From the NCBI RefSeq assembly GCF_002117005.1, contig NZ_CP021023.1:2962995-3026994 (forward strand): a DNA stretch of 64,000 nucleotides, written 5' to 3'. Made by a program: the position numbers and the translations under genes. Position 1 is the first letter of the stretch, and each line of letters opens with the position of its first letter. The notes below the pieces were generated by a model. It saw only the letters and a program-made list of their open reading frames with translations. It ran no database searches and had not been told where the DNA came from. Shown piece after piece: positions 18,478-46,140 of this stretch. This DNA comes from Sedimentisphaera salicampi. Its GTDB lineage: Bacteria > Planctomycetota > Phycisphaerae > Sedimentisphaerales > Sedimentisphaeraceae.

Positions 18478-18900
18478 TAAAATACCTGCTTTGTGTGCAT
18501 TTTGCTGTTTAAGAACAATAAATCTATCTTACACTCAGCCACTGTTTTTGCAACTAAACGCTTGTATTTCAGCAGGGAATATGGTTCAAGTTTTTGGATG
18601 AAATCCACGTAAACGCAGGCAGAGCGAACATGGGAATGGAATTCGGAGAAGCAAAAACTGTATGCTTGAGAAAATATAACGCCGGAAAAGCTTGTAATAC
18701 AGGCGAAACTTATTAGATTTGCTGAAAGGCCTTTATGGCCGAAAAAATCAGAGAATTAGCACAAGCGGTCTCTACTCCTGCATATATTGTTCTCTTGCGA
18801 AACGGCAAACCAAATCTCCTGCGCAGGTTCACTTTCGAGGACTTCAAATCCCGTCTTTCATAAAAGAACACTTAATTTTACGCTCTTTGTTCCTTCTTTT
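18478..18900. other. Non-coding stretch, no recognised gene
   Basis: Between prmC (minus) and the conserved element at 18901 I find no convincing gene, tRNA or terminator. A short GGCC-TTTAT-GGCC hairpin lies near 18727-18739. The base composition becomes AT-rich towards the 19-kb operon. The promoter of prmC should lie at its left end. Confidence 0.6.
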
Positions 18901-18984
18901 GCACAAATTTGCGGAATTTTTATACAAATATGCGTTGGTTTTGGTGTGTTTTATAGTATTTACATAGTAAGACGAAAGCTGATT
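18901..18984 (+). promoter_or_regulatory. Conserved upstream element A: TGCG direct repeat at 21 bp
   Basis: GCACAAATTTGCGG begins the element, with TGCG at 18910-18913 and again at 18931-18934, exactly 21 bp apart, separated by an AT tract with TTTTTATAC. The following 50 bp (TATAGTATTTACATAGTAAG, then GACGAAAGCTGATT) are also nearly the same as at 27430-27513. It lies 131 bp before the start of the 791-residue protein. The layout suits an operator followed by a promoter. The regulator is unknown; AraC-type binding is inferred from the spacing. See elements B (27430) and C (43499). Confidence 0.7.
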
Positions 18985-19114: not shown

Positions 19115-21490
19115 ATGCTTATCCAAAAAATAAAATTTTTATGTTTAGTTATTATTTTATTTATTCTTTCTCATTCAGCTATTGGTGGAAACACGGGTGT
19201 TTATAAAGCCGACTTAGACCAGGATATTGCTGCGGACCGCTGGATTGAAATAGATCTTTACTGGTTTGACTACGATGATATGGAAGCCAGCGCTGAACAG
19301 TTCTGGGACCGTTACTACCCAATGTTCGAAAATATTGAAAACTGGAAGGGCGTGATTCTTAATGTCGGCTGGCTTATGGATACTGTATATGAGTGGCAGG
19401 GCAGCCTCAATAAAAAAATCGCCTTGCCCAAAGATATGGAGCACTGGCCGTTTATTAAGGATGAAGGACAGCTCACCGGCAATACTGAGCAGCGCAAGGA
19501 ACTTTGGAAACATCGTTTTGAGACACTGGACGGTTATAATGTTGTAAATTATGCTCCTTGGACCTACGGCGACTTGAAAAAACTTGTAACTATACTGAAA
19601 AAGGTTGGCCGAGACAAATATGGTCTTGAAGATATAAGGATTGGAATGCTTGCCCTTGGCTGGCGCAGCATTTATCATGGGGAGTTATCTGCTTTCTCTA
19701 AGACACATGAAAATGCTTATCTGAAACGCGGTATTAAGTGGGGAGTCCCCAATCTTATAGCGAAACTAAAAGAAGATCCGAGGGAATATGGAGCTTATCC
19801 TGACGGAATTCCCGAGGGTACTCCTTTAGTTGAATTTTTCGGCAAACAGTGGGGAGACCTCTCAAAAACAGTAGGACTCGATGCAATTGTGCTTCGTGAC
19901 AGCATCATGGGTGTCGGCATTTATGTAAGAAACGGCCCTTATGGCCGAACCCCGCCAGAAGAGCCAAAAAAAGTGTCTCAGTGGAGCCAGGCAACAGCTG
20001 ATCTGGTAAGACACACAAAACAGTCTAACCCTGAGGCCCTTGTCATCGGATACTCTTCTGCCGCAAGCGCTGTAGGAGACTGGCGGGTAAACTGTTTTGA
20101 CTTGGAAACTATAGCGAAAGAAGGTTACCTTGATGCATGGATAGACCAGAGCTGGGCAGGTGCATGGAATGAGGTAGGGCAAAGACCTCCGGAGTGGGCA
20201 AGTTTGTGGAACGCGCAGCGCCTTGGCTGGACTTATCAGCTTGGATACATTCTCGGCCACGCAGCCGTTTTAGCTGAAAGTGATGTTCGTCATTATTTCC
20301 TCACAGAAACGTTTGATGCATGGGAGTCTTGGGATATTATACACACCGCCGCTGACAGGCTTCGATGGGGCATCTGGGCGTATTCTCACGCTGCAGTAAA
20401 AACACCAAGCGGTTTGAAAATGCCCGCTGGAAGTTATATCTCTTGGTGCAATCAGGGGAAAAGGCTTCTCTCGGAGGAAGATGTTGATTTCATTGTAAAA
20501 CATACAAATGCAGCTTTGATTGATGCTCGAAATACGAAAGAAGTTTACGGGCCTACTCTGGTTTACAACAGAAGCGCCATGGAATGGCAGAATGAAAATT
20601 CACCGAATATAAAGATAAAAGAATGGATCGACGAACAGGCCGGCGCTGTTATGAAATGGTCGGTGCCAATTATGTCAATCACTAGGCTCGAATATCTCAA
20701 GGATGTCGAAAGTGATATGTTTATCGTCCAAACCCCTGTTCACATGGAAGACACCGAGAAGGAAAACCTAATTGAGCTTATCAAATCTGGCAAGCCCACA
20801 GCGATTTTTGGAAGCCCTGCAGGCGGTCTTGATAAAGATGTCGCAGAAATTATAGGTATCAAAACCAACTATAATACTACCGGCAAGCTTGAATTTATCG
20901 CTACTTTAAACGGGCAGGTAAAAGGAATCTTTGAAGGCCTTCCCAATACTTTTCCGCTGTATCATTATTTTACAAAGAACAAACTTACCAAACCGATTCA
21001 GACTCTGTACTGGGTTAAGCAGGAAAACCCAGCACTGGTGCTCAACAATTTAAAGGGAAAGAGCCTGCTTTTCTGGGATCCTCCGGAGTTTGCAACAAAT
21101 ATTCCATACGGTAACGCCGGCTCACTGGACCAGGACCTTGGAAGCCCTATACCATATTGCCTCACTGCAAGGGCAATAAATAAAATGAGCAAAGAAGCAG
21201 ATCTGTGTTATGTTGATCAGATAAAACCATACAGACCAATGCAGCTGTCCTGCTGGAAGACCAAAGACGGGCACTATCGCATCTTAGCCGGCAATCTTGA
21301 AGAGGGGATAAACCATAAATCTGACAAATGGGTGCACAATACTCTCAATATCCCCGAAAGTTTTGAATTACCGGATGTATTTACTGCTCAGGAGTTTTGG
21401 CAGGATTCAAAGTACGTGATAGGCGATAATAAGCTGAGGGTAGTACTGGATCAGGCTGAGACAAAGCTCTACATTTTGGAAAATGAGTAA
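19115..21490 (+). CDS. Secreted protein of unknown family, possible TIM-barrel glycosidase
   Basis: 791 residues from the ATG at 19115 (AAAGGA 10 bp upstream), with a signal peptide ending near SHSAIGG. I do not recognise the family. What can be seen: an N-terminal region with alternating hydrophobic strands and acidic/aromatic motifs (LYWFDYDD, GVILNVGWLMDTVYEW, IVLRDSIMG, DAWIDQSWAGAWNEVG, FLTETFDAWESWD). These resemble the strand ends of a glycoside hydrolase barrel. Then comes a flavodoxin-like stretch (MFIVQTPVHMEDTEKENLI and AIFGSPAGG), reminiscent of the middle domain of GH42-type enzymes. A C-terminal beta-rich region follows. It is the first gene of an operon with a URO-D-like protein, a GH2 enzyme and a sugar porter, so action on a glycan is likely. 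Catalytic residues cannot be assigned. Confidence 0.6.
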   Translation: MLIQKIKFLCLVIILFILSHSAIGGNTGVYKADLDQDIAADRWIEIDLYWFDYDDMEASAEQFWDRYYPMFENIENWKGVILNVGWLMDTVYEWQGSLNKKIALPKDMEHWPFIKDEGQLTGNTEQRKELWKHRFETLDGYNVVNYAPWTYGDLKKLVTILKKVGRDKYGLEDIRIGMLALGWRSIYHGELSAFSKTHENAYLKRGIKWGVPNLIAKLKEDPREYGAYPDGIPEGTPLVEFFGKQWGDLSKTVGLDAIVLRDSIMGVGIYVRNGPYGRTPPEEPKKVSQWSQATADLVRHTKQSNPEALVIGYSSAASAVGDWRVNCFDLETIAKEGYLDAWIDQSWAGAWNEVGQRPPEWASLWNAQRLGWTYQLGYILGHAAVLAESDVRHYFLTETFDAWESWDIIHTAADRLRWGIWAYSHAAVKTPSGLKMPAGSYISWCNQGKRLLSEEDVDFIVKHTNAALIDARNTKEVYGPTLVYNRSAMEWQNENSPNIKIKEWIDEQAGAVMKWSVPIMSITRLEYLKDVESDMFIVQTPVHMEDTEKENLIELIKSGKPTAIFGSPAGGLDKDVAEIIGIKTNYNTTGKLEFIATLNGQVKGIFEGLPNTFPLYHYFTKNKLTKPIQTLYWVKQENPALVLNNLKGKSLLFWDPPEFATNIPYGNAGSLDQDLGSPIPYCLTARAINKMSKEADLCYVDQIKPYRPMQLSCWKTKDGHYRILAGNLEEGINHKSDKWVHNTLNIPESFELPDVFTAQEFWQDSKYVIGDNKLRVVLDQAETKLYILENE

Positions 21491-21554
21491 GGCTCTTTTA
21501 GCCGAATTTAGGTTTAGACTAATAATAACATAGGTTAGCAAGAAAAGAACTGCA

Positions 21555-22643
21555 ATGGAAAATTATAGTAATAAAATCACTTTGACCACAAAAAATGATT
21601 TTGAAAAGGCGATGGAAAGGGTTTACGCTTGGTATAACAATGAAATTATAGACCGAGTGCCTGTTCAGTTTTCAGCAGCAAATGCTCAGTACAATGTTGA
21701 ATCAAAAGATAACCACACTCCGCAGGAGTGGAAAGAGATTTGGTTTGACACCGAAAGAGTGGTTGATTCTTTTATTGATTCTATAGAGGGCAGCCAATTT
21801 CTCGGTGAAACATTTCCGATTTACTGGCCTAACCTCGGGCCAGATATCTATGCGGCATTTTATGGCGGCGAGCTGACATACGGCGAAGTTACTTCCTGGT
21901 CCCATCCCATAGTTGAGGATTGGAGCGAGATAATAGGGCTCAAACTGGACAAGAGCAATAAGTATTTTAAGAAAATTGAAGAAATGACTCAGTGTGCTGT
22001 CGAAAAGTGCCACGGGAGGTATCTTGTGGGATACACTGATCTTCATCCTTCTATGGATTGTGTGTTGGCATGGAGGGGCATGGAGCAGTTGTGTTACGAT
22101 ATGATTGATACTCCAGATAAAGTAAGTGAGCTTTTGGAGATTGCATCTAGAGACTTCTACGACATCTTCGATCATTTTGATAAAATGCTTAAATCCCAAG
22201 GACATATTTCTGTTACTTGGCTTGGCCTCCCGAGTTATGGCAAATTCCATGTACCCAGCTGTGATTTTGCAACTATGATGTCGCCGGCACAGTTTGATAA
22301 ATTTGTGATGCCTTATCTTCTGGAGCAGATAAAACACATGGACCATAATGTATTTCATGTTGATGGAAGCGGAGTGGCAAGGCATATTGATAAGATACTG
22401 GATATGCCTGAAATTAACGGGATTCAATGGGTACAGGGAGTCGGAGAAGATGAACCCATAATGCAATGGTTAGATTTTATCAAAAAAATTCAGGCCGCAG
22501 GCAAGGGTGTTATGGTAGATCTCAAACTTCACGAACTGGATGAATTTATTGAAAAAATGTCTCCGAAAGGCATCTTCTTGTGTATTGGAGAAAGTGAGCC
22601 GGAAGTTCAGAAATCAATTATCAAAAAGCTGGAAAAATGGTAA
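21555..22643 (+). CDS. Uroporphyrinogen-decarboxylase (URO-D)-like protein, possible methyltransferase
   Basis: 362 residues, no signal peptide. Matches the URO-D/MtaA fold pattern: RVPVQFS near the N-terminus, MSPAQFDKFVMPYL (242-255), HVDGSGVARHI (268-278) and FLCIGESEPEV (341-351). H268 and C343 lie where zinc ligands sit in the cobalamin-dependent methyltransferase branch (MtaA, CmuA). It is not HemE: the N-terminal substrate arginines of true decarboxylases are not apparent, and no heme gene is nearby. It lies 64 bp after the unknown secreted protein and before a GH2 gene. A role in demethylating or modifying a sugar or related compound is a guess from context. No corrinoid protein is seen in the window. 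Confidence 0.75.
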   Translation: MENYSNKITLTTKNDFEKAMERVYAWYNNEIIDRVPVQFSAANAQYNVESKDNHTPQEWKEIWFDTERVVDSFIDSIEGSQFLGETFPIYWPNLGPDIYAAFYGGELTYGEVTSWSHPIVEDWSEIIGLKLDKSNKYFKKIEEMTQCAVEKCHGRYLVGYTDLHPSMDCVLAWRGMEQLCYDMIDTPDKVSELLEIASRDFYDIFDHFDKMLKSQGHISVTWLGLPSYGKFHVPSCDFATMMSPAQFDKFVMPYLLEQIKHMDHNVFHVDGSGVARHIDKILDMPEINGIQWVQGVGEDEPIMQWLDFIKKIQAAGKGVMVDLKLHELDEFIEKMSPKGIFLCIGESEPEVQKSIIKKLEKW

Positions 22644-22779
22644 AGCTGAATCCCTACATATTTCAACGGTAAGGGATACAGTTAGATGTCTATGGTGTAA
22701 TTACTCTGCCTGTTAAAATGGCTTATCAGTGCAGAGGGGTAAAAGGTATAAAATAATTTCTCTATTAAGGATTTGTTCT

Positions 22780-25743
22780 ATGATACTCAATAAGTCGCCA
22801 AATAATTTCAAGTCGTGCCTTTTTTTTACGTTTACTTTCTTAATTTTGCTTCAGGTGAGTTTTGGGGCAGAAAAAAAACAAATTGACCTCAGCGGCGAAT
22901 GGTCTTTTAAAATAGACCGCGAAAACGTGGGTGTTAGTGAAAAATGGTTCAAAAATGATTTGCCTGATGAAATCAATTTGCCGGGCAGTATGCAGGAGCA
23001 GGGCTACGGCAATAATGTAACTGCGAAGACTGGATGGATCGCTGATTCAAGCGGCGTTGGGCCGATGACTGATGCTGAGATGGGCTATGATCAAGTGGAA
23101 GCTAAATCAAAATATCCAAGCTGGTTTACTCACCCTATGTATGCTGAATATCGTCAGACTGATAACCTGAGGTATCCTTACTGGCTTCAGCCTGAAAAAC
23201 ATTATGTAGGGCCGGCTTGGTATCAGAAAGAGATTAACATTCCAGAGCAGTGGCAAGGCAGGAGAGTTACATTGACATTGGAAAGATGCCACTGGAAAAG
23301 TGATGTCTGGATTGATGGTGTAAAAGTAGGAACAAATGATTCTTTGGTAAGCTCTCATGTTTATGATCTGAAAGATTTTGTCTCCCCCGGAAAACATAAG
23401 CTCACCATCAGAATCGATAATTCAATGATTTACAAAGTTGGATATAATTCTCACATCGTTTCTGATCATACACAAAGCGCATGGAACGGTATTATCGGAA
23501 ATATTTTTCTCAAAGCAGAGCCGCTGGTATGGCTGGAAGATGTGCAGGTGTATCCCAATGTCAAAAATAAGACTGCCAGAGTGCAATTCAAAATGAACAA
23601 TGAGACTTACAACGATGTTGAAATGGCTGTTACGATAAATGCACGAAGCTTCAATTCTGATAAAATGCACAAACCTGAACCTGTTACAACAAATATAAAT
23701 GCAAGAGAAGGTGAGACTATCGTTAATATGGTTTATCCGATGTCTGGTGAAGTTCAATTGTGGAATGAATTTAACCCCGCTCTTTACAAACTAAGCATTG
23801 AAGCTGTTCCTTCCGATGACAGGATAAGAAGCTGCAGAAAAGAAGTTTCATTCGGGATGCGTCAAGTAGGAACAGAGGGCACAAGAATCGAGATCAACGG
23901 CCGGAAAATATTTTTGCGGGGAATTGAAGAATGTTGCATTTTCCCAAAAACAGGTTATCCGCCGACAGATGTTGAATCCTGGCGAAGGATTATGAAAATC
24001 AGCAAAAAATGGGGCATGAATCATCTCCGTTTTCATTCGTGGTGCCCGCCTGATGCGGCATTTCAGGCAGCTGATCTTGAAGGGGTTTATGTTGAGGTTT
24101 CGTTTTTCTGGACAAGATTCGAAGATGAATCGGTTTACCGTTTCCTTCGAAGGGAAGCCCGCCGTGCTATGAGTCAGTATGGCAATCATCCCTCCTTCAT
24201 ACTTCTATCGCCCGGCCAGGAATGCTGGATGGCGGGCAAGGATATGCTGGAGATGTTCAGAGATTGGAAAAGAGATGACAGAAGGCTTTACAGCGGGCCG
24301 GGGAATTCTAATTGGCTGATAAAGCCTCGGATAAAAGAAGAATATCAATACTATGCTGCCCGACATTATGACGGCCATAGGACTCGTTATCAGGCCGGTT
24401 GGCCCCCAACACCAGACGGCACATATTTCACATCAATGCCTCCTCAGACCGTTGTTGACTATGAGAAGGCAGTACAGGCTTTTGGAAGCAAACCTTTGAT
24501 CACCTACGAAGTTGTCCAGCGGTGCAGTTATCCAGACTTGGATGATGCTGACAAATACACTGGTTCGTTTGATGCTGCTTATCTGGATATCGCCAGAGAT
24601 CAGCTCAAAGAAAGGGGGATGCTTAAGCAGGCAGATGATTTTGTCGCTGCTTCAGGTAAGTGGCAGGTAAAGCAGTTCAAGGAAGAAATTGAAGCGGCAC
24701 TGAGGACAAAAGGGGTTGCAGGATTTCAGCTTTTAGGCATTCAGGATTTTCCCGGGCAGGGAGCGGCATTAGTTGGCGTTATTGATGCCTTCTGGGACAA
24801 CAAGGGATATGTAAGTGAAAAAGACTTCCGTCAGTTCTGTGATGTTACTGTTCCGCTTGCACGCATGGAAAAAAGGGTATGGGAAAGGAGCGAAACTTTC
24901 AAAGCCGGAATTGAGATAGCTAACTTCGCAAGAGAAAAATATGAAAATATGAGCATTATTTGCAAGGTCAAATCAGATGAAGGAAAAGAATTGCAAGCTG
25001 AAAGGCTTGCAAAGATGGATATACCGATTGGAAACGGCTTTAATGCAGGTGATTTTGAAGTGAGCTTGGCGGATTATACCCCGGGCAAATATGTCCTTGA
25101 AGTGCAGCTGGCTAATACCGATTACAAAAATACATGGGATTTCTGGGTTTATCCTGATGATGTGAATATGCCATCAGCTGGTGATATAATGATAACAAAA
25201 GACTTTGATGAAAATACAATTAACCATCTTGAAGCAGGGAAAAAAGTGCTTCTGCTTCCTGAACGGAACAAAGTAGCCGGCGGGATGCCTCAGTGTTTCT
25301 CAAGTATTTACTGGAACTGCCCTTGGACAGGCGGGGGTGAATCCCAGACTATGGGAATATTGTGTAATCCAGAGCATAAGCTCTTCGAGAGTTTTCCTAC
25401 AGACTCTCATTCAAATTGGCAGTGGTATGAGCTGCTGATTGACGCAAGGCCCATGATCCTTGACCAGTGGGGCATGGAAAATAACTGGCCTAAAGATTAT
25501 CGTCCTCTAGTTCAGTTGGTTAATGACTGGAATACGAACAAGAAGTTATCTGTGCTTTCTGAGTGTAAAATCGGTAACGGCAAGCTTGTTATCTGTTCGA
25601 TGGATATTGAAAATGACCTTGAGAACAGGATTGTCGCAAGGCAGTTCAGGTATAGTTTGCTGAATTACATGAAAAGCAGTGAATTCGACCCGCAGACCAA
25701 GGTCGGTAAGCAGCAGATCGATGGGCTGTTCAAAAGCGATTGA
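22780..25743 (+). CDS. GH2-family glycosidase with altered acid/base motif
   Basis: 987 residues from the ATG at 22780 (AAGGA 8 bp upstream), with a signal peptide ending at VSFGA. Domain order matches the 3955-7710 gene: IDLSGEWSF sandwich, immunoglobulin-like domain, TIM barrel (INGRKIFLRGIEECC), and a C-terminal module with WNCPWTGGG and NWQWYELL, but no discoidin domains. The putative acid/base is E481 in LLSPGQECWM, where the almost invariant Asn before Glu is Gln. The nucleophile is E577 in ITYEVVQ. An insertion near WIADSS (about residues 85-130) is shared in kind with the other two paralogues. It lies between the URO-D-like gene and the MFS gene. Substrate unknown; activity may differ from classical GH2. 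Confidence 0.82.
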   Translation: MILNKSPNNFKSCLFFTFTFLILLQVSFGAEKKQIDLSGEWSFKIDRENVGVSEKWFKNDLPDEINLPGSMQEQGYGNNVTAKTGWIADSSGVGPMTDAEMGYDQVEAKSKYPSWFTHPMYAEYRQTDNLRYPYWLQPEKHYVGPAWYQKEINIPEQWQGRRVTLTLERCHWKSDVWIDGVKVGTNDSLVSSHVYDLKDFVSPGKHKLTIRIDNSMIYKVGYNSHIVSDHTQSAWNGIIGNIFLKAEPLVWLEDVQVYPNVKNKTARVQFKMNNETYNDVEMAVTINARSFNSDKMHKPEPVTTNINAREGETIVNMVYPMSGEVQLWNEFNPALYKLSIEAVPSDDRIRSCRKEVSFGMRQVGTEGTRIEINGRKIFLRGIEECCIFPKTGYPPTDVESWRRIMKISKKWGMNHLRFHSWCPPDAAFQAADLEGVYVEVSFFWTRFEDESVYRFLRREARRAMSQYGNHPSFILLSPGQECWMAGKDMLEMFRDWKRDDRRLYSGPGNSNWLIKPRIKEEYQYYAARHYDGHRTRYQAGWPPTPDGTYFTSMPPQTVVDYEKAVQAFGSKPLITYEVVQRCSYPDLDDADKYTGSFDAAYLDIARDQLKERGMLKQADDFVAASGKWQVKQFKEEIEAALRTKGVAGFQLLGIQDFPGQGAALVGVIDAFWDNKGYVSEKDFRQFCDVTVPLARMEKRVWERSETFKAGIEIANFAREKYENMSIICKVKSDEGKELQAERLAKMDIPIGNGFNAGDFEVSLADYTPGKYVLEVQLANTDYKNTWDFWVYPDDVNMPSAGDIMITKDFDENTINHLEAGKKVLLLPERNKVAGGMPQCFSSIYWNCPWTGGGESQTMGILCNPEHKLFESFPTDSHSNWQWYELLIDARPMILDQWGMENNWPKDYRPLVQLVNDWNTNKKLSVLSECKIGNGKLVICSMDIENDLENRIVARQFRYSLLNYMKSSEFDPQTKVGKQQIDGLFKSD

Positions 25744-25865
25744 TAACACGTCCATATAATTATGGTTCAAATTTATTAAATAAAATGCTGCTGGCTGGTA
25801 CAGAAAAATGTATTCAGGGTGCTTCCCGGGCCTTGCATTACTAAAAAATGAAATAAGGAGAAAAA

Positions 25866-27269
25866 ATGGGCGAAGAGAAAAATTCTAATCTCAGTAAGAG
25901 TTATCTTCTGGGCATATCGCTTGCAGCGGCTCTGGGCGGGCTGCTTTTCGGTTACGATCTTGTTGTAATCGGGGGAGCTAAGGAATTTTACGAATTAACC
26001 TTCGGTCTCAGCAGTCCGGTTATTAAGGGCTGGGCAGTTAGCAGCTGCATAGTAGGCTGCATAGTTGGTGCGTTTTTTGTCGGCAAGCCTGCTGATTTGT
26101 TCGGCAGAAAGATGATGCTTTCCATCGCTGCAATCCTTTTCTTGATTTCAGCAGTTGGTTCTGGATATGCACCTTCATTCTTACAATTTATAATATACCG
26201 AATAATCGGAGGTATTGGCATGGGGATGGCTTCCACAATCTCTCCAATGTATATCTCTGAGCTCTCGCCTGAATCTATACGAGGTAGGTTTGTTTCCCTG
26301 CAGCAGCTCAACATCGTTATTGGCATTCTTCTTGCCCAGCTGGTAAATTATCTCATTCTGAAATCACATCCAATCCCGGAAGACGTAAGCGGGGCGGCTT
26401 TGCTTGACACATGGAACGGGCAAACCGGCTGGCGTTTGATGTTTCTTGCTGAAGGGTTCTGGGCGCTCCTGTTTTTCTTTTGCATGCTCTTTGTGCCCCA
26501 CAGTCCAAGGTGGCTTTGTAAGGTTGAGAGAGAAGAGGAAGCAGGAAATGTTCTCAGGCGAATCGGGGGTGAGGATTATTCCAAAATGTATCTCGCTGAT
26601 ATCAAAGATTCACTTAAAGGCGGGCATCATATAAATGAGTTTGCCGAAATCCTTAAACCTAAAGTAGCAAAGATTGTTGTTGTGGGGATTTTTATTGCGA
26701 TTTTTTCACAGTGGTGCGGGATTAATGTAATTTTCAACTATGCCCATGATATTTTCAAAGCAGCCGGCTATAATGTCAGCGGCGTGCTCTTTAATCTGCT
26801 TATTGTAGGTATAACGAATTTCCTGTTTACAATTGTAGCGATGGTTTCGATAGACAAGCTTGGAAGAAAGAAGCTTATACTTGCAGGTGCAGTAACTCTC
26901 GGAGTATCCTATACACTCCTTGGGGTTTGTTTTAATATCGGCAGCCAAGGGATCCATGTGCTTGGTCTAGTGCTGCTTTCAATAGCATTTTTCGCCTCAA
27001 GTATCGGCCCAGTAACTTGGGTTCTTCTTTCAGAAATATTTCCAAACAAAATTCGAGGGCTTGCAACTTCAATTGCAGTTTTTGCTATGTGGATAGCTAA
27101 TTTCCTGCTTGCTCTGACATTCCCAAGCTTGATTTCAAGCCTTGATTTTGACAAAACCTTCTGGCTTTATGCATCAATTTGTTTTCTGGGAGCAGTTTTT
27201 ATAAAGCTGTGTGTACCTGAGACTAAAGGGAAGACCCTTGAGCAGATTGAAAGGGAGATTACTGGATAA
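25866..27269 (+). CDS. MFS sugar porter (SP family, XylE-like)
   Basis: 467 residues with twelve hydrophobic segments. Sugar-porter signatures are complete: GGLLFGYDLVVIGG (20-33), DLFGRK, MYISELSPESIRGR and the C-terminal PETKGKTLEQIE. It should import a monosaccharide or short oligosaccharide by proton symport across the inner membrane. ATG at 25866 after ATAAGGAG. It closes the operon with the unknown secreted protein, the URO-D-like protein and the GH2 enzyme, so it probably carries their product. No terminator is obvious after it; the next conserved element starts 160 bp later. Confidence 0.92.
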   Translation: MGEEKNSNLSKSYLLGISLAAALGGLLFGYDLVVIGGAKEFYELTFGLSSPVIKGWAVSSCIVGCIVGAFFVGKPADLFGRKMMLSIAAILFLISAVGSGYAPSFLQFIIYRIIGGIGMGMASTISPMYISELSPESIRGRFVSLQQLNIVIGILLAQLVNYLILKSHPIPEDVSGAALLDTWNGQTGWRLMFLAEGFWALLFFFCMLFVPHSPRWLCKVEREEEAGNVLRRIGGEDYSKMYLADIKDSLKGGHHINEFAEILKPKVAKIVVVGIFIAIFSQWCGINVIFNYAHDIFKAAGYNVSGVLFNLLIVGITNFLFTIVAMVSIDKLGRKKLILAGAVTLGVSYTLLGVCFNIGSQGIHVLGLVLLSIAFFASSIGPVTWVLLSEIFPNKIRGLATSIAVFAMWIANFLLALTFPSLISSLDFDKTFWLYASICFLGAVFIKLCVPETKGKTLEQIEREITG

Positions 27270-27429
27270 ACAAAAAGGGCGGTGCAAAGCAATTATGCAA
27301 AAAAGGAAAGGCTTAAACAGATATTTAGTAAGTATCCCTGCTGGCAGAGAAGTTGAATTTTTAATTTCTAATCCAAAACTGAGAAGATGTAATATATTAG
27401 ACAGGATCAAAGGGATGATTCTACAAATT

Positions 27430-27513
27430 GCGCAAATTTGCGGAATTTTTATACGAATCTGCGTTGGTTTTTGTGTAACTTATAGTATATATATAGTAAG
27501 ACGGAAGCTGATT
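27430..27513 (+). promoter_or_regulatory. Conserved upstream element B: TGCG direct repeat at 21 bp
   Basis: Nearly identical to element A at 18901. TGCG occurs at 27439-27442 and 27460-27463 (21 bp apart). The left half is a perfect 12-bp palindrome, CGCAAATTTGCG (27431-27442). The shared part runs on through TATAGTATATATATAGTAAG to GCTGATT. It lies 120 bp before the first LamG gene and probably drives the 27.6-37.3 kb operon. The rest of the 364-bp gap (27270-27632) shows no gene. Confidence 0.7.
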
Positions 27514-27632: not shown

Positions 27633-29243
27633 ATGAAAAAAATGTTAATTGTGTTAATGTGTTTTGGCTGCATCTATGCGGCTAAAGGGGCAGATTTGCT
27701 GGAGAACTGGCAATTTGATGATGGCCTCGAAGACTGGGAGCATACTTCCAATAACAGATGGCATCATCATCTTGAAACAGAAGGCGATCTGAATTATTTT
27801 CGATTTGGCTGGACAAATGGCCTCAAAATCTGGCAGAATATGGGAACTTTTGAGGAAGACACGATCTACCGCATGAGGGTAAGAGCCAAGAACTGGGACG
27901 GCAAATGCGAGGCATTGAAGCTTGGGTTCAAAGACCAGACAACCGGCATAATGGTGGTTGATGACGAAAAGTGGTTTGAGTATGGCGGTGATAACAAATG
28001 GCCGGACCCTAATGCTGTATATCCTTGGGAAGATTTTGGCACAGAGCTTGATACTTCAAATCATCCTGAGATCGTAGGCAATTCTATGCTCACAGTTATT
28101 ACCTTGAGCGATTATGAAGACCCGTGGGGGCAGTGGTGCTGGCTCGCTCTGGATTATGTGAGCGTTGTTCCCGATAAGCCGAAGGTTATGGTTCAGCCGC
28201 TTGATGATATAGCTGCGCCGGACGCTGAATTCAGTGTTGGTGTAGCGAGCTATTCACAAGTCCATTATCAATGGTATATTTCTGATGATGATATCGTCGG
28301 AGATGATACTCCCGTAGGTACAGACTCAGAAACGCTTGTTCTAACTGATGTTCCCTCGAGTGATGCGGGGAAAAAAGTTTACTGTACAGTAACTAATGAA
28401 GAAACTGCGGCTTCTGATACTTCCGAGATGGCCCTTCTGGGCGTGAAAACAAAGATGGCCCACTGGAAATTTGAAGACAATCTTAATGATGATACACCCA
28501 ACGGATACGACGGAACTTTATACGCCCCTTACTCTCCTGCATTTACATCTAACGGATTAGACGGCAGCGCAATTGAATTCACCCAGACCGAGCCCAACAG
28601 AGTAGTGATTGAGGGAAGCGAAGACGATTTCAACAACTATCAGGGCGGCCTAACAGTAAGCGCATGGGTAAATACTTCCTATACTGACGATTGGCAGATA
28701 ATAGCAGCGAAGGATGATAGAGACATTGACTGGAGCGGCTGGTATCTGGGCATCAATGATTCTCAGCAGGCAACTTTCTCCTTCAGAGGAAATAGTGCTT
28801 CAACAGGAAGCACGGATTTAGCAGATGGGCAGTGGCATATGGTAACAGCGGCATACAACCCTGAAACGATGGAACAGAAACTTTACGTTGACGGACTTCA
28901 AGACGCTGAAACAGTGGTTCTTGAAGATGCTCCAGCTAAAAATCCTCAGGGCGAAGTGCCTGTAGTTATTGGTGCAGAGAATATGTATTCCGATGGCCCG
29001 AGGCTTCCGTTTTATGGGTTAATGGACGATGTAAGAATATACAACTATGCCAAAGGACCGTATGAAGTGGTTGATATCTATAATGATGTTACCGAGCCAG
29101 ACAGGATATTCTGCATTGAAGATGATATACCTGCTCTCGATACAACCGGTCCAGACGGCCAGCCGGACTGCAAGGTTGATATACTTGATTTTGCAGCATT
29201 AAGCGCAGATTGGATGTCTTCAGGACTGTATCCGGTTGACTGA
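27633..29243 (+). CDS. Secreted LamG-domain protein with Ig-like domain and dockerin-like tail
   Basis: 536 residues. Signal peptide (1-20, MKKMLIVLMCFGCIYAAKGA), an N-terminal carbohydrate-binding-like domain (LENWQFDDGLEDWE, about 22-185), an immunoglobulin-like domain (about 190-270), and a LamG/concanavalin-like domain (about 275-485; MAHWKFEDNLNDDTPNGYDG, GQWHMVTAAY, LYVDG). The C-terminal 45 residues (GPDGQPDCKVDILDFAALSADW) match the planctomycete dockerin-like calcium-binding tail. No catalytic motif is seen. Likely a cell-surface or extracellular glycan-binding or scaffold-attached protein. Start follows AGAGGTG. First of three related genes. Exact partner unknown. Confidence 0.8.
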   Translation: MKKMLIVLMCFGCIYAAKGADLLENWQFDDGLEDWEHTSNNRWHHHLETEGDLNYFRFGWTNGLKIWQNMGTFEEDTIYRMRVRAKNWDGKCEALKLGFKDQTTGIMVVDDEKWFEYGGDNKWPDPNAVYPWEDFGTELDTSNHPEIVGNSMLTVITLSDYEDPWGQWCWLALDYVSVVPDKPKVMVQPLDDIAAPDAEFSVGVASYSQVHYQWYISDDDIVGDDTPVGTDSETLVLTDVPSSDAGKKVYCTVTNEETAASDTSEMALLGVKTKMAHWKFEDNLNDDTPNGYDGTLYAPYSPAFTSNGLDGSAIEFTQTEPNRVVIEGSEDDFNNYQGGLTVSAWVNTSYTDDWQIIAAKDDRDIDWSGWYLGINDSQQATFSFRGNSASTGSTDLADGQWHMVTAAYNPETMEQKLYVDGLQDAETVVLEDAPAKNPQGEVPVVIGAENMYSDGPRLPFYGLMDDVRIYNYAKGPYEVVDIYNDVTEPDRIFCIEDDIPALDTTGPDGQPDCKVDILDFAALSADWMSSGLYPVD

Positions 29244-29287
29244 GTTTGTGAAGTTAGAATATAAAAATAATATTGAGGTGTAAGATT

Positions 29288-30916
29288 ATGAAATCTCTTA
29301 TAACAATAATCATAGCTATAACAGTTTTAACAGCTCCTGTTCCTGCAGTGGAATTGGATTTAGTTAATAATAATTTTGACCAAGGGGAAGAAATACGCGG
29401 AGAGCTGATTTTTCCTGACGGTTGGACAGGCTTTAACTCAGTTAATAGGGTTCATTATTGTCCGAACGGAAATACATGGAAGCCGGGGTATGAAACAGTT
29501 GTAAGCAATTTGATGTACGGCTGGAATGATGGATGCGGCATAACCCAGAATGAAACTGTTTCAGGCGTAACTCTTCCTACAATTCAGCCGGACAAAGTTT
29601 ACACTATGATAGCCAGAGTAAAGATGGATGAGGATTCTTCCGATGCCGGAGTTGGACTGCAGCTTAGGGATCAGGATGAAAACTCTGTAATTGTTGAGCA
29701 AGACTTCTTCAACACTGGAACTGACTGGGTTATATATGAGCTGTCTTTTGATGCTGCAGATGTAGATTATATGCATACCGCAGGGCATAAATTGGCTCCT
29801 GCTGTAAGAAACCATGGCGGTAATAACTGGCAGATGGTAGATTACGTTAAGCTCTTTGAAGGCGAAGCAGTATGGATTGCTCAGCAGCCTCAGGATGTGC
29901 TGGCAGAAGAGGGCGGAGATGCTGTATTTTCAGTTTCGCTCAACGAGCCTGTAAGCCCGGTTACTTATGAATGGTACTCATCCCCTGATAAAACTGTGGG
30001 CGATAATGACGTATTCATAGAGTCTGGAAGCTCAGAGCTTACCTTATCAAATGTTCAGATCTCAGATGCCGGAGAATACTACTACTGCGTAGTGAGCGGC
30101 AGCGATTTTTCAATCACCTCTGATACGGCTATGCTTGAAGTTCCAAGGCTTATGGCTAACTGGAAGCTCGACAGCAATCTTGAGGATTCAAGTCCAAACG
30201 GATGGGACGGCACCGCCGCAACTACTAATTTCGTTTCAGGCGGAGGCATTGACGGAGACTGCTGCCAGTTTACCAACGACCTTAATGAATCTATCGAAAT
30301 CCCGGGAAGCAGCGATGCTTTCAATAACTATAATTTAGGGCTAACTGTCAGTTTCTGGCAAAAATATGACAGCCCAAACACTGATTGGGAAACGGTTATT
30401 TCAAAGAGCACTGGAAATTCAAACGGCTGGGAATTTGCAACCCATAAAGATTACCACGCTCCTCTATTCGGGTTCAGGGCAACGGGCGCGCTTAACTCTG
30501 AAATAGATATTGCGGACGGTCAGTGGCACCACGTCGTAGGTACATTTGACGGCGAGGACACCGTGAGGCTCTATGTTGACGGAGAGCTCGACCTCGAAAA
30601 TACTGGTGATTTGGAAGTTACAGATAACATCACAAATGTGATGATTGGCCAGCGTAATGAAAGCGGTAAAGAAAACGAACTGGGCGGATATCTTGATGAG
30701 ATCAAGGTTTATAACTATGATATAGGTGCTGAAGGCGCCCTCGATCTCTACAATGAGTATGCAGCTTCGCCAAAGACGCTCTGCATTTTAGATTATGCTC
30801 AGCAGTACGATGTTACCGGGCCCGAAGGTGAGCCGGACTGCTTAGTTGACCAAAACGATTTATATGTACTCCTCATAAACTGGCTTGAGGATAACACATA
30901 TCCTCAGGTAGATTAG
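29288..30916 (+). CDS. Secreted LamG-domain protein, paralogue of the preceding gene
   Basis: 542 residues from the ATG at 29288 (GAGGTG 7 bp upstream; a TTG five codons earlier overlaps that site and is unlikely). Signal peptide ending at VPAVE, N-terminal binding-like domain, Ig-like domain (WIAQQPQDVLAEEGG), LamG domain (MANWKLDSNLEDSSPNGWDG, GQWHHVVGTFDG, LYVDGELD), and dockerin-like end (TGPEGEPDCLVDQNDLYVLL). Same layout as the 27633 gene, so a tandem duplicate that has diverged. Followed by a strong terminator at 30933. Confidence 0.8.
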   Translation: MKSLITIIIAITVLTAPVPAVELDLVNNNFDQGEEIRGELIFPDGWTGFNSVNRVHYCPNGNTWKPGYETVVSNLMYGWNDGCGITQNETVSGVTLPTIQPDKVYTMIARVKMDEDSSDAGVGLQLRDQDENSVIVEQDFFNTGTDWVIYELSFDAADVDYMHTAGHKLAPAVRNHGGNNWQMVDYVKLFEGEAVWIAQQPQDVLAEEGGDAVFSVSLNEPVSPVTYEWYSSPDKTVGDNDVFIESGSSELTLSNVQISDAGEYYYCVVSGSDFSITSDTAMLEVPRLMANWKLDSNLEDSSPNGWDGTAATTNFVSGGGIDGDCCQFTNDLNESIEIPGSSDAFNNYNLGLTVSFWQKYDSPNTDWETVISKSTGNSNGWEFATHKDYHAPLFGFRATGALNSEIDIADGQWHHVVGTFDGEDTVRLYVDGELDLENTGDLEVTDNITNVMIGQRNESGKENELGGYLDEIKVYNYDIGAEGALDLYNEYAASPKTLCILDYAQQYDVTGPEGEPDCLVDQNDLYVLLINWLEDNTYPQVD

Positions 30917-30932
30917 TTTTCAGTTTATTTAA

Positions 30933-30953
30933 GGCCCCGCTTTATGCGGGGCC
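30933..30953 (+). terminator. Rho-independent terminator
   Basis: GGCCCCGC (30933-30940), loop TTTAT, GCGGGGCC (30946-30953), followed by ATTTT. The 8-bp GC stem is perfect. It sits 17 bp after the second LamG gene and may separate or attenuate expression of the third LamG gene, sulfatase and GH59. Confidence 0.9.
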
Positions 30954-31021
30954 ATTTTCCCCGAAATTCTGCACGCAATGTTTATATAGATTTATGCACA
31001 TCTTCACTGAAAGAATTGACT

Positions 31022-32824
31022 ATGTTGAAAAAACTTCTTCTTTTTATTGGCATATTTGCAGTTTCATTTTTTGCCGTTTCGCAGGCTTCAACCCCTTGGC
31101 TCCACTGGAAACTCGACCAGAATTCAGGGAAAGCAGCTTTTGATTCCAGCGGAAACCGCCGAGAAGCAAATCTCTACGGACAAACCTTCAAGGATAATTC
31201 TTCGGAAGGTATCGTGGGTTCTTCCCTTCTTTTCGATGGGAGTTCAGAGTCTGCTTCTTATCATTTTTCTTCATCCGAGTTTGAGGAATATACAATTTGT
31301 TTCTGGGTGAAAGCCGCAAGCTTATCCCAAAAGCAATACTGTGCTCCGCTTAACACTTACGGGGCTTCCTCTAACGGTTTTCAGATAGATGTAGATGGAA
31401 GCAGCCCGGGGAACTACCGCTATATCAGCGGCAGCGGCGAAATAATAATGGGCTCAGCTCAAAAGCAATGGGTACACCTTGCCGTATCAGGAACTGAGAG
31501 CGAAACAAAAGTTTACTATAACGGAACTTTTGCCGGTTCAAAGACCCTGAGCGATAATATTTTCAACCAAATAGCTATAGGTGTAAACAGGAACGGCAGC
31601 AGATTTTTCAATGGTTATATTGATGATGTGCAGGTGTATGACAGGAAACTCAGCAACAGCGAAATACATTACATCTATGCAAATCCCGGAGAAGTAGTTT
31701 CGCCTGAGCCTGCTGTATATAACATCCGCCCCGAAGATGGAGAGGTTGGCTTTCCTTCTGGTGCAAATCTCACATGGGACACTGCCGGCTGTTATCTGTT
31801 TGAACCGAAATTCGATATTTACTTCGGGCAGACTGCACAGTCTCTTGAGAAGATTCGAGGCAGTTATGAAAGCAAGTCTTTGGATTACCCTCTCTCCGCC
31901 GGGAATCGTTATTACTGGCGGATTGATATTATTGATGATAATGACAGCGTCCATCAGGGCAGTTTGAGAAGTTTCGTAACATTCAGCAGCAGTCTTGAAC
32001 TGCTCAATTTAGGATTAAACAGCTTCTCTCAGTCCGGCGAACTGTACAGCACTCAGGACAGTTCGGTTTTGAATAATGAAGTTTATATTCCCCAAGCCCC
32101 ACAGCTTGAGGATGGAGTAAGCGGGAAGGCCTTTAGCTTTACAAAGGACAACAGAAACGAGCTTTCTTGCAGCCTTGGCCAGAAATCTTTTGCCAAAGGC
32201 GAAAACTGGTCATTAAATATGTTCCTGAAAATCGATTCTGAAAATGATTCATGGACAAGGATGGTTGGCCTCGGCACACAGACCCAGCACGGACTTTACA
32301 TCCTTGAAGATTACAAACTGGGTTTTATATATGATATGGATTATATCGTAAAGACCAGTTCAAGATTGGTGCCTGAGAGATGGTATATGCTCACTTTGAT
32401 TAAAGACGGAGAAAAAATAAAGCTGTATATCAACGGCAGATTAGAATCTGATGAGCCTTATGAAAACCTGAAAAATGAGGATTATGATTTTCTGCCATAT
32501 TATTCTCAGTTTACACAGTTTCAAGGGGCTGTTGATGAATTCAAAATTTTCGCAGGTGCAATAACGGATTCTAAAATCGAGCAGGAGTTGGAAATTCTTG
32601 CAGGGAATACCGAGATCAGCTCAAATTTTACTCCGGACAGAAACATATTAAGTATTTTCGCCTCCGAGTGGCTCAGTGAGCTTTCTCACGACCAAGCCAT
32701 TCCTTCTGGAGATTTGAATTTATATTCAGATCTTTGCTGCTATGCAAGTGATTATAACTGGGATAATAGGGTTGATATTTTAGATTATTCTGTTTTCGCC
32801 TTCAACAAACGCTTTTTGAAATAA
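31022..32824 (+). CDS. Secreted protein with two LamG domains and dockerin-like tail
   Basis: 600 residues from the ATG at 31022 (signal peptide MLKKLLLFIGIFAVSFFAVSQ cleaved near ASTPW). A LamG domain comes first (LHWKLDQNSGKAAFDSSGNR, WVHLAVSG, YYNGTFAG), then a fibronectin/Ig-like segment (RPEDGEVGFPSGANLTWDT). A second LamG domain follows (MLTLIKDGEKIKLYING), and a C-terminal dockerin-like region (DLNLYSDLC and YNWDNRVDILDYSVF). Upstream in-frame codons from 30944 run through the terminator region and are unlikely to be translated. Likely glycan-binding. It lies 10 bp before the sulfatase. Confidence 0.78.
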   Translation: MLKKLLLFIGIFAVSFFAVSQASTPWLHWKLDQNSGKAAFDSSGNRREANLYGQTFKDNSSEGIVGSSLLFDGSSESASYHFSSSEFEEYTICFWVKAASLSQKQYCAPLNTYGASSNGFQIDVDGSSPGNYRYISGSGEIIMGSAQKQWVHLAVSGTESETKVYYNGTFAGSKTLSDNIFNQIAIGVNRNGSRFFNGYIDDVQVYDRKLSNSEIHYIYANPGEVVSPEPAVYNIRPEDGEVGFPSGANLTWDTAGCYLFEPKFDIYFGQTAQSLEKIRGSYESKSLDYPLSAGNRYYWRIDIIDDNDSVHQGSLRSFVTFSSSLELLNLGLNSFSQSGELYSTQDSSVLNNEVYIPQAPQLEDGVSGKAFSFTKDNRNELSCSLGQKSFAKGENWSLNMFLKIDSENDSWTRMVGLGTQTQHGLYILEDYKLGFIYDMDYIVKTSSRLVPERWYMLTLIKDGEKIKLYINGRLESDEPYENLKNEDYDFLPYYSQFTQFQGAVDEFKIFAGAITDSKIEQELEILAGNTEISSNFTPDRNILSIFASEWLSELSHDQAIPSGDLNLYSDLCCYASDYNWDNRVDILDYSVFAFNKRFLK

Positions 32825-32834
32825 AGGAAAATTA

Positions 32835-34301
32835 ATGAAACGAAGAGAGTTCTTTAAGTGTATCGGTGCTTTCGGTGCAGTATGTCTTTCTCCCCAGCTT
32901 TCATTGAGTGAAATCGCTGCGGAAGGTCTTTCAAAGCCCAATATCGTATTAATGCATATTGACGACCTTGGCTGGGCGGATGTAGACTATAAAGCCCCCC
33001 ATGATTATTATGAAACTCCCAACATAGATGCGTTAAAACAATCTGGGATGGAATTCAATAACGGCTATGCCGCAGCTGCTTTATGCTCTCCTACAAGAGC
33101 GGCTCTTATGACAGGCAGGTATCCGGCGAGGACGGGAGTAACAAATTTCATCAGCAGGCCGAATGTTACCGAAAACCCCGAGGGCTACATCAGCTCTGCT
33201 TCGATGGAGTATAAAACGCCTAAAAGATACCAGTTTCTTGAGCTGGAAGAGGTAACTATTGCTGAAATTCTCGCACCGGCTGGTTATGATACTTACCACC
33301 TCGGCAAATGGCATTTAGGTACTTCAGAGCCTTACACTCCTGATAAGCAGGGCTTTGAAGTTCAAATGATGGGCGAATGCCACAGGGATTATTTTGATCC
33401 ATACGATTGCGACTCTCTGCCTGACAGGAAGGAAGGGGAGTACCTGACAGACAGGCTCACAGACGAAGCCGAAGCCCTGATGCGTACTTCCAGAGATAAA
33501 GGCAAACCATTCTTTCTCCATTTAGCTCATCACGCTGTTCATACCCCCATACGGGCAAGACAGGACTATATAGATTATTTCAAGGCAAAGCCCAAGCCCT
33601 CAGGCTGGGAACACCTTGACCATGTATATGCTGCTATGATTAAAAGCGTTGATGATTCGGTTGGTGATATTATCTCTAAAATTGATGAACTGGGGATTTC
33701 AGAGAATACTTTTGTGGTGTTTACATCAGACAACGGCGGCCACCAGCCCGTATCAGACAATACCCCATTGAGAGAAGGCAAAAGATGGCCCTATGAGGGA
33801 GGGATACGGGAGCCTTGGATATTCAAATGGGACGGCGTTATACAGCGCGGCTCGGTTTGCGAATATCCAATATGCAGCATAGATGTGCTGCCTACATTAT
33901 GCGATTTAGCGGGCGCTGATCTGCCTTCGGGAGTTGATATTGACGGGGTAAACATCACCCCGCTGCTCAAACAGCAGCAGCAACTGCCGCAAAGAGATTT
34001 GTTCTGGTATTTCCCGCATTACATCTCTGACTACACAGGCGAAATTGCTCCGTTTGCTGTTATCCGCAGCGGAAAGTGGAAGATGATCAGGTGGTATGAT
34101 TCCCACAAGCCCAGCGAGCTTTATAATCTTGACGCTGATCTTTCTGAAACTAACAACTGCGCTGGACTATATCCGGAAAAGGTGTTAGATTTCGAGCTGC
34201 GGATCGAGAGGTGGATTATTGAAGTAGATGCAAAAAGGCCGCTCAAAAATGAGAATTACGACGACGGCCGCCCAGGTAAAGAAAACGTATTCATCGGTTA
34301 A
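32835..34301 (+). CDS. Type I (formylglycine) sulfatase, Tat-exported
   Basis: 488 residues. N-terminal KRREFFK with a hydrophobic stretch resembles a twin-arginine signal. The metal site starts with LMHIDDLGWAD (39-49), and the formylglycine motif is C84-S-P-T-R followed by ALMTGRYPARTG. KWHLG (about 158-162), HHAVHTP and FTSDNGGH are further sulfatase motifs. It removes sulfate esters from a glycan in the periplasm or outside. A maturing enzyme (anaerobic sulfatase-maturating radical SAM protein) must lie elsewhere. Between a LamG gene (10 bp) and GH59 (22 bp), so the target of this operon probably carries sulfate on galactose or a related sugar; that target is inference. Confidence 0.93.
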   Translation: MKRREFFKCIGAFGAVCLSPQLSLSEIAAEGLSKPNIVLMHIDDLGWADVDYKAPHDYYETPNIDALKQSGMEFNNGYAAAALCSPTRAALMTGRYPARTGVTNFISRPNVTENPEGYISSASMEYKTPKRYQFLELEEVTIAEILAPAGYDTYHLGKWHLGTSEPYTPDKQGFEVQMMGECHRDYFDPYDCDSLPDRKEGEYLTDRLTDEAEALMRTSRDKGKPFFLHLAHHAVHTPIRARQDYIDYFKAKPKPSGWEHLDHVYAAMIKSVDDSVGDIISKIDELGISENTFVVFTSDNGGHQPVSDNTPLREGKRWPYEGGIREPWIFKWDGVIQRGSVCEYPICSIDVLPTLCDLAGADLPSGVDIDGVNITPLLKQQQQLPQRDLFWYFPHYISDYTGEIAPFAVIRSGKWKMIRWYDSHKPSELYNLDADLSETNNCAGLYPEKVLDFELRIERWIIEVDAKRPLKNENYDDGRPGKENVFIG

Positions 34302-34323
34302 AATAAATTAAGGCTTTATATAA

Positions 34324-37882: not shown

Positions 37883-39511
<1,629 letters not shown>

Positions 39512-40174: not shown

Positions 40175-43100
40175 TTAATCTTCAATAATTGGCTCAATCT
40201 CCGCAACAGCAACTGATGCATCACTGCTATTAGTACTCAGCTTTTTAAATTTCAAAAAGCGCCCCTTACGAGGGCTGGAGAAATGAATCGTCTCTCTTTT
40301 TTCTGATCCATCAAAGCTGCCGGAATGAAGGGCATCGCTCCATGTTTTACCATCCATGCTGACGGAGATTTCATAATCCTTAACCCGAACATGAGCCGCA
40401 TCCTGCCGCGGCAGATAGGTCATACCGTTAATCACTTCTTTTTCCCCAAGGTCGATGATAATCTCCTGCGGCATTTTTTTGTTGTTTTTCCAAGGAGAAT
40501 GCCAGAATGTCTTTTCGTTACCATCAATTGCTTTCAATACCTCATAGCCGGCAGCGGAATCGGATGCGGTTGTCCCGTCGATCATTTTTAATCGTAACGG
40601 ATCCATAAACAGCTCTGACAGGGAGTCGATATCAATCGTTTTGGCTGGTTTGAAGGATTTGCTCTTCATGTAATTAACCAGACTTTTTCTAAGTTGGCGG
40701 GCTGCAGGGCGATTTTTCAGGTCATTGAGAATATCGATCGAGCAGACCATTAGCTTGCCCCGCCCGACTTCTGCTTCCATTAGCAAACCGAGACGGCGCG
40801 GATTAGTCCAATCATCAATAGGCTCAACGATCGCTTTATAATTCTTCGGTAATGAATTAATGACAAGCGGTTTGGAGTTTTCAAGCAGATCATACCATTG
40901 CCAATTTGTATAGTTCTGGGTTGGAAAATCCGCGAGTGCAGGATGCTGGTTATCGCAGTAAATACCCACCGTATGAACTGAACTGCTGCTGAACATAATT
41001 CGTGTCCAGAAGATCGGAGTAAAGCTGCCTTTTGTATTTCCTGCGACGCTTTCGGGACGAGGAACAAGAAGAACAGTCTTTCCTTTATTTAATTTTTGAA
41101 TGGTCTCGTCGTTCCATAACTGGCTTACGATGATTTCATTCGATTTCATTTCTGCCGGTTTTTCGTTGGGATACACCCACATATCCCATGAATTCTCATT
41201 ATCAAGCCCTTCAAGCTTCACGCTTAAATTAACTTGAGAGGCTTCTGTGATTGAGGAAAGAGGCTCTTTTATATTGCCAGCAGTGGTTACATAACCTGTC
41301 GGCAGGTCAATTGGGCCAAAACTGCCTTTGCCGATTATTTTGCCTTTTTTATCGGTCAGGTTCCATTTAACAATTTTTTCTTCCAAATCTTTGGGGCCGT
41401 AATGGGAGATCATAACTTGAGCTTCAAGATCCTGATCGCTTTCCCATACAAAGCTGTCGAATCGGGCCAGCGGCGTAGTTACATTACAGAACTTGTTATA
41501 CTCTTCTGTTGTTACATAGCCTTTGCTTTCCCAGAATTCATCAAAAGAACCAACGGGTGCATAACCCTGACCGGGAAAATCCCGCAGATCGAGCATCTGA
41601 ACACCTCCATATCCAGGTGTTCGCAAAGCTGCTTCCCATGTTGACTTATACAACAGTGTCTGGAACTTCCCTGAAGCCATATAATAATCTTCATAGCGGT
41701 TCAGGGTGCCCCTGTCCCGCATAAAATCTTCGTAGATATCAAGGTAATATGGGTGCAGGCTGCCCTTGTATTTTTTGCGTACATCGAAATTGGGTAAGGT
41801 TGCCCACTGCCCGTCTTCGTGTGTGATAATCGGAATATCACTGTTGTTAATAATGTTGCTGTAATCAAAATCGGTGTCTGATGCACGAACTGAATGGAGT
41901 TTTTTGTCATAAAATTTACCCTGCCCAGTAATAGCGAATTCAGCTTCCTTGCCAAAAATTTTTCTCACATTATCGGTCAGCATCGTTCCATGCGTGCCTT
42001 TTTTATAGTGCCGCAGAAGCTTATCAGCCATGTTCGAGCCTTTTTCCTGCCTCAGTTCATTACCGATGGCCATAAACGCGCAAGAGGGATGATTCCCGTA
42101 TGCCGAAAGCAGCAAGGCTCCCTCTTCGAAAAGCCAATCGTCGGTGGTCTGGTCATTACCAAGACCAACCCACATTGCCATTTCTGATTGAAGCAAAATC
42201 CCTACATCATCGGCGGCCTCAAAGGCGGCCTCGGGCGGACACCATGAATGGTAACGGACATGGTTTAGCCCGCAGGATTTTGCCATTTTATATATTTCGA
42301 CCCAGCTTTCTTTGTCCATCGGCGGGTAGCCTGTGTTCGGAAATATACAGCAGTCCAGTGTGCCGCGTAAAAACAGATTCCGGCCGTTTATCTTTAACTG
42401 ATTGCCGTCTGCATAAATGCGGCGAAGTCCAAATGTTGTCTCATAGCCATCTTCATTCATTTCTCCTGTCGGTATGGTTTGCAGTTGACAACTTAACGTA
42501 TAGACAGCAGGCGTAAACTCATCCCACAAAACGGCGTTTTTGCCCATCGCATAAATTTTTTCGACGTCAATATTCTTTCCGGCTGGTATCCTTGCAGTGA
42601 ACGTTTTGGAGGGAGCCTGATGGCCTTCGCCGTAATTTGTTTTAGCCTGATAATTTACACGAACCTGAACAGCTTTATCAGAGGAATTATTCAAATCAAA
42701 AACGACTTTAGCGGCTGGGTTTTCAGTGTCAATTGTATCAACGGACACTTGATCGATGTGTACCAAGGGACGCGACTCAAGATACATATCTCCGATGATC
42801 CCGTTCCAGTTGCTCTGCGTGTGGTCTGATATGTTATGGCCGCCCGCACCAACATTGATATCTTTGATGCGATTGTCCACCCGAACGGTTATACGATGTT
42901 TGCCGGGAGTGAGATAATCGGAGAGATTGTACTGGTGGGGTGCTGAAATTGAGTTTTGCATTCCTACACGTTTGTTGTCCACCCAAAGCTGCGTTTCCCA
43001 GTGAACGCGTTCCAGGTGCAGAAGGATTGTTGTGTTTTTCCATTCATTAGGGATTTCGACGTCTTTTTGATACCACGCTGCTCCGACATAAACGCGGTCA

Positions 43101-43417: not shown

Positions 43418-43498
43418 AAAAACCTCTCTTCACTGATATTCATCTTGTAAATTTCAAAATTCATAAAAGTAGATTGTACCAATAAAATATGGGGCGGC

Positions 43499-43534: not shown

Positions 43535-43610
43535 AGACAAGAGATGATAAAAGCGGCTTGGGAGTAAGCCGGTAGTGACAATACTTTCTGTAAATTCGGG
43601 TAGATTATTC

Positions 43611-46126: not shown

Positions 46127-46140
46127 TACTCAATTGAAGG

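Follow-up and report, generated by a model that had tools for sequence, protein, structure and literature searches.

A conserved 36-bp direct repeat points to a regulon of seven dispersed glycan operons and its likely XylR-type regulator in Sedimentisphaera salicampi

We describe a 36-bp direct-repeat element that, in our judgement, is quite likely the operator of an AraC-type activator in Sedimentisphaera salicampi. The regulator is most likely a XylR-type protein encoded at C1:2650726-2651892 of the source genome (G000), which would switch on seven operons. The regulon is new, its operator and regulator are of a known kind, and the gene set and its regulator apparently have not been described before. 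Three copies of the element lie in the window, by which we mean the whole 64,000-nucleotide stretch analysed (NZ_CP021023.1, positions 2,962,995 to 3,026,994), together with the following features.

18899..18934, + strand: putative operator 1, half-sites TTGCACAAATTTGCG (18899-18913) and TTATACAAATATGCG (18920-18934), spacer gaattt; E 4.3e-12
18952..18962, + strand: -10-like region of operator 1, TATAGT (18952-18957) or, at the consensus offset of 22, TATTTA (18957-18962); ambiguous
19115..27269, + strand: predicted operon 1, co-linear in the congeneric genome G001
19115-21490, + strand: uncharacterised secreted 791-aa protein, operon 1
21555-22643, + strand: 362-aa protein with a weak URO-D match, operon 1
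22729-25743, + strand: GH2-C, operon 1
25866-27269, + strand: XylE-like sugar porter of the MFS, operon 1
27428..27463, + strand: putative operator 2, half-sites TTGCGCAAATTTGCG (27428-27442) and TTATACGAATCTGCG (27449-27463); E 4.1e-11; 89-bp promoter duplicate of operator 1
27481..27491, + strand: -10-like region of operator 2, TATAGT (27481-27486) or, at offset 22, TATATA (27486-27491)
27633..37263, + strand: predicted operon 2, co-linear in G001
27633-29243, 29273-30916 and 30944-32824, + strand: three LamG-domain proteins, operon 2
32835-34301, + strand: sulfatase, operon 2
34324-37263, + strand: GH59, operon 2
43501..43536, - strand: putative operator 3, half-sites CTGCACATATTTGCG (43536-43522) and TTATACAATTATGCG (43515-43501); E 3.2e-10
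43473..43478, - strand: -10 box TACAAT, 22 bp past operator 3
40175..43417, - strand: GH2-B behind operator 3, a secreted, beta-galactosidase-like protein of 1080 aa with an F5/8-type-C domain

The initial annotation had reported three TGCG-N17-TGCG elements with a TTTTTATAC tract inside, and all three are present, their first TGCG lying at 18910 (+), 27439 (+) and 43525 (-), positions by which we name the sites below. These elements are real and far above chance. The bare TGCG-N17-TGCG pattern occurs 12 times in the window, six times per strand, and therefore says little by itself; combined with the TTTTTATAC tract it has five exact matches in the whole 3,192,293-bp genome. Two of the five, at C1:2084576 and C1:2647220, fall beyond the window; they precede a sulfatase and a GH2 gene, and neither took part in making the search pattern. 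A reversed-pattern control matched the genome once at up to two mismatches. The 21 bp originally given as the length of the element is the period of the repeat. Site alignment revealed a conserved unit of 36 bp, a direct repeat formed by the 15-bp half-site TTGCRCAAATTTGCG, N6 and the half-site TTATACAAATNTGCG, in which the TTTTTATAC tract comprises the end of the spacer and the front of the second half-site. The elements had also been placed 82-131 bp upstream of the genes, which is wrong for two of them, as their 3' ends lie 181, 170 and 84 bp from the ATG. Over 89 bp, sites 18910 and 27439 are about 88% identical, and they thus represent one duplicated promoter rather than two independent observations; the similarity of site 43525 to them is limited to 36 bp, the element itself. 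The duplicated segment (window 18899-18987 and 27428-27516) stands before two neighbouring operons, and includes a conserved stretch 3' of the -10, 'agtaagac(g)aaagctgatt'.

The similarity between the two half-sites is that of a direct repeat (mean 9.8/15) rather than of an inverted repeat (5.1/15), and the inverted-repeat symmetry of a LacI-type palindromic operator is not kept across the 15 sites. A LacI-like reading would confine the operator to the left half-site, as a palindrome CGCAAATTTGCG under a repressor, and assign the right half to the promoter. The left half-site is indeed a perfect 12-bp palindrome in three of the 15 sites; however, the palindrome is broken (6/12) in five others that retain the 21-bp repeat, the right half is as well conserved as the left and is non-palindromic, and a fixed -10 spacing with no -35 box fits an activator, all of which makes such a repressor site very unlikely. 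Across the 15 sites, the mean -10 score peaks solely at offset 22 (3.12, versus a maximum of 0.81 in 2000 shuffles). The best TATAAT-like match falls 22 or 23 bp past the second half-site in 10 of the 15 and at other offsets in the remaining five; at sites 18910 and 27439 the -10 is ambiguous between offsets 17 and 22, and the G001 ortholog of operator 1 has TATAAA at offset 22. No TTGACA-like hexamer was found at 17-bp spacing in the 15 sites. The downstream half-site at -35, the fixed -10 distance and the poor -35 correspond to the class II layout of the AraC family, and the anatomy of the element is that of an AraC-family activator site overlapping -35. At araBAD of E. coli, the AraC half-sites I1-I2 form a direct repeat 21 bp apart, the second of which overlaps -35, and the element has both the 21-bp direct repeat and the -35 overlap in common with them. 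In contrast, E. coli AraC carries a cupin sensor, whereas the candidate regulator here has a LacI-like one.

The element might alternatively constitute a promoter of another class, for example one served by the ECF sigma factor of the divergent gene at 43992, or no more than a duplicated piece of promoter to which no regulator belongs. An ECF sigma/FecR pair does adjoin site 43525, and sites 18910 and 27439 do form an 89-bp duplication. Nevertheless, a sigma70-type -10 lies at a fixed distance past a 36-bp repeat longer than a -35/-10 pair allows, site 43525 has nothing but the element in common with the other two window sites, and the element is more conserved than its flank in several ortholog pairs; we therefore regard this explanation as extremely improbable. 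A sigma-54 promoter reading of the element was rejected. The region divergent from GH2-B (43992-46992) encodes the ECF sigma factor, a FecR/NPCBM protein and a glycosyl hydrolase catalytic-core protein.

A sequence-only model built from six sites was scanned against the whole genome and 59 relatives. The genome yielded seven sites with E from 4e-12 to 5.4e-7, values that are partly circular for the six sites used in the model but not for the seventh (C1:23365) or the congener, neither of which was in it, and the next match followed at E 0.23. The score gap is clean, and no site is scattered regardless of genes: all seven are intergenic, lying upstream of and pointing at glycan, sulfatase, transport or URO-D genes, which make up the following predicted target sets.

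Set 1: the 791-aa protein, the 362-aa protein, GH2 and MFS
Set 2: three LamG proteins, a sulfatase and GH59
Set 3: GH2-B
Set 4: GH2-A and the XylR-type regulator
Set 5: a sulfatase
Set 6: GH2-D, behind GH10/GH127 genes
Set 7: a URO-D/MtaA-like protein and an SSF transporter

Among the 59 relatives, strong sites occur only in the congeneric genome G001, which has eight: seven precede orthologs of the seven targets of the source genome, and the additional one precedes a sulfatase pair. For several ortholog pairs, conservation is higher in the element than in its flank (33/36 identical versus 20/39 for operator 1, 31/36 versus 14/39, and 30/36 versus 13/39); in the sulfatase and GH2-B pairs the flank is conserved about as well as the element. 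The GH2-B ortholog is 91% identical over the 458 aa read. An unlinked regulon for GH2, GH59, sulfatase and the uncharacterised protein had been proposed from the window, and the seven sites upstream of such genes, all kept in G001, bear this proposal out. The regulon reading is thus supported by the confinement of the sites to promoters of related genes and by their conservation across two species, and the initial annotation, having recognised a real regulatory element, is right in its main conclusion.

The 791-aa protein (19115-21490) has no Pfam match. In a set of 298 genomes from the class, it has a single homolog beyond the genus (about 48% identical, in G137), which has no similar element nearby. 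The URO-D match of the 362-aa protein is weak (E 0.001, below the cut-off); together with the MtaA/CmuA-like target at C1:22010-23284, this protein may represent a second URO-D-like protein in the regulon. Predicted structures of the two proteins were too poor for searching (mean pLDDT 36 for the 791-aa and 46 for the 362-aa protein). Additionally, a lone Cpn60 chaperonin gene (37886-39511) lies between two glycan operons and has a 61% homolog elsewhere in the congener. An ABC-transporter gene that is intact in the window genome looks split in G001 by a 540-aa ORF (L081 4832-7593), which recurs elsewhere in that genome (L084) and is probably a transposase.

The candidate regulator carries a LacI/GalR-like domain (Peripla_BP_3) fused to an AraC HTH (HTH_18) according to Pfam, and matches E. 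coli XylR (4fe4/4fe7) over its full length (residues 6-383, E 4e-43). Its gene lies outside the window and follows GH2-A, a gene with the element in its promoter, at a distance of 111 bp; a 91% identical protein occupies the same place in G001. Since the regulator gene stands directly behind an element-bearing GH2 gene, the regulator is probably autoactivated. In a tree of 64 proteins, the regulator forms one clade (support 100/99) with homologs from G001, G052 and G025, the latter two genomes representing other families than the source genome. These two also gave the top motif scores among 14 homolog loci (28.9 in G025 and 16.8 in G052). In G025, the best model match of the genome lies 118 bp behind the regulator homolog, and in G052 the homolog is accompanied by a GH2-A ortholog (55% over 1075 aa), SSF genes (72-84%) and two elements. 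In G043, a genome of the same order, a homolog more remote from the regulator precedes an element, a URO-D gene (62%) and an MFS gene (40%). Compared with the genus sites, the elements of G052 and G043 carry several base changes (CGATT, GGCG) and have far lower scores. These two loci indicate that in other genomes the regulator stands together with regulon members that are unlinked here. The G044 homolog, likewise about 43% identical to the regulator but outside the clade, showed no such element. Most GH2-A orthologs in other families have neither regulator nor element nearby, so that the GH2 enzyme alone is no predictor of the operator.

The own genome encodes 17 HTH_18 proteins, 12 XylR-like and five other, and for several of them no operator was found. 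The true regulator could consequently be one of the eleven other XylR-like paralogs or an orphan AraC protein, with the neighbourhood of C1:2650726 being coincidental. We consider this unlikely: three of the paralogs have distinct conserved repeats of their own, the candidate alone carries the element in its own operon, and the same pairing recurs with its clade mates in two other families. The three paralogs (L034, L036 and L037) carry 21-bp-period repeats, AACACCATTATGCG, CCATTTTGCGTTA and ACCACTTTGCG, beside their own genes; these have CCA-type half-sites unlike the element, are conserved in G001, and represent further regulons readable from sequence.

The initial annotation had further placed the element in one regulatory family with the rha array of the window, and this was borne out only at the level of a shared AraC-type architecture of 21-bp period. 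The rha promoter (window 7829-7922) contains two divergent TGCGACA-N14-TGCGACA pairs of period 21 with the half-site TTGCGACA, and the AraC gene of the window (13545-14510) encodes a cupin-type sensor domain; hence the rha repeats have the period and the TGCG in common with the element but differ in half-site and type of regulator. This AraC protein might nonetheless control both rha and the element operons, as no other AraC gene lies closer to site 18910, and TGCG repeats of 21-bp period occur in the rha promoter as well. Such an arrangement is, however, very improbable. In the rha half-site the TGCG stands at the start, the rha promoter is absent from the matches of the element-model scan, and nothing in the genome links the window AraC gene to other members of the regulon. 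G001 has rhaA, aldolase, kinase, the AraC gene (82%) and the TGCGACA pair at one locus, some 1 Mb away from its ortholog of site 18910. Furthermore, in G000 and G001 the TGCGACA pair matches rha promoters only, and not the 36-bp element. The different half-site and the linkage to rhaA and AraC in both species, in the congener away from the element sites, point to a different regulator and regulon, and the rha array is best read as a second, separate AraC-type operator belonging with the window AraC gene.

We also scanned the 300-bp flanks of XylR-like genes for 15-bp direct repeats with periods of 15 to 45. At least 10 matches were found at period 21 in 23 of 39 XylR-like loci, and at any other period in at most 15. 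An alignment-based search for relatives of the regulator returned 80 loci, and a search with the single regulator sequence returned none. In 77 further loci from named genomes, period 21 reached at least 11 matches in 24 (other periods: mean 4.2, maximum 8) and at least 12 matches in 14 (mean 1.4, maximum 5); since the 24 include a few simple tandem repeats that do not represent operators, and the loci are interrelated, the other periods serve as a control and do not give a strict probability. The half-site recurring beside XylR-like genes is about CCANTTTGCG. In the E. coli xylA-xylF region, the period-21 repeat (11/15) is among the best, tied with four other periods. We lean towards the view that LacI-AraC fusions of Planctomycetota and neighbouring phyla use half-sites NCCANTTTGCG (here CAAATTTGCG) placed 21 bp apart next to their own genes, with clade-specific changes. 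If true, the regulons of many uncharacterised glycan regulators would be readable from sequence alone, and the window would be one resolved example.

In the mechanism that we propose, two activator monomers would bind head to tail to the two 15-bp half-sites, 21 bp apart and on one face of the helix. The downstream half-site would overlap the -35 region, the -10 box following 22 bp away, and, as no -35 box is visible, RNA polymerase would rely on the activator being bound. We infer both the head-to-tail dimer binding and activation with the downstream half-site at -35 from analogy with the AraC/XylR family. The regulator would bind a sugar freed from a beta-galactoside glycan, probably a sulfated one, and turn on the seven unlinked operons, supplying four GH2 galactosidase-like enzymes, GH59, sulfatases, LamG proteins, MFS and SSF transporters and URO-D-like proteins. 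To name a sulfated or pectic beta-galactoside glycan as the substrate is to guess, though not without grounds, because GH59 is a galactosidase family and GH2-A matches the model of the exo-beta-1,4-galactosidase BT4151, albeit below its cut-off. BT4151 acts on the galactan side chains of rhamnogalacturonan I (PMC8002723). Xylose seems a less likely inducer, because the targets are mainly galactosidase and sulfatase genes.

The candidate shares its LacI-like and AraC domains with E. coli XylR over the full length. A Vibrio homolog, XylRA, has been proven to activate a marine polysaccharide locus with xylan genes by binding two direct repeats (PMC12125979), the same operator form as the element, to which binding by the candidate is predicted. 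XylR and XylRA differ in having an AT-rich half-site, compared with CAAATTTGCG here, and in controlling xylose genes, compared with a dispersed galactosidase and sulfatase regulon here. In another phylum, the carrageenan degradation genes of Zobellia galactanivorans are described as one complex regulon (PMC5698469), and glycan genes are thus likewise joined in one regulon; we found no evidence of a substrate or regulator in common with the element regulon.

Planctomycetota are very rich in glycan enzymes and sulfatases that do not lie in clear gene clusters. Our literature search found no described operator or regulon for the scattered glycan enzymes and sulfatases of this phylum. The conserved operator identified here joins seven scattered operons, including proteins without a known domain, into one predicted pathway and points to its likely regulator. 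The 21-bp repeat rule may also help to match genes to regulators in related bacteria.
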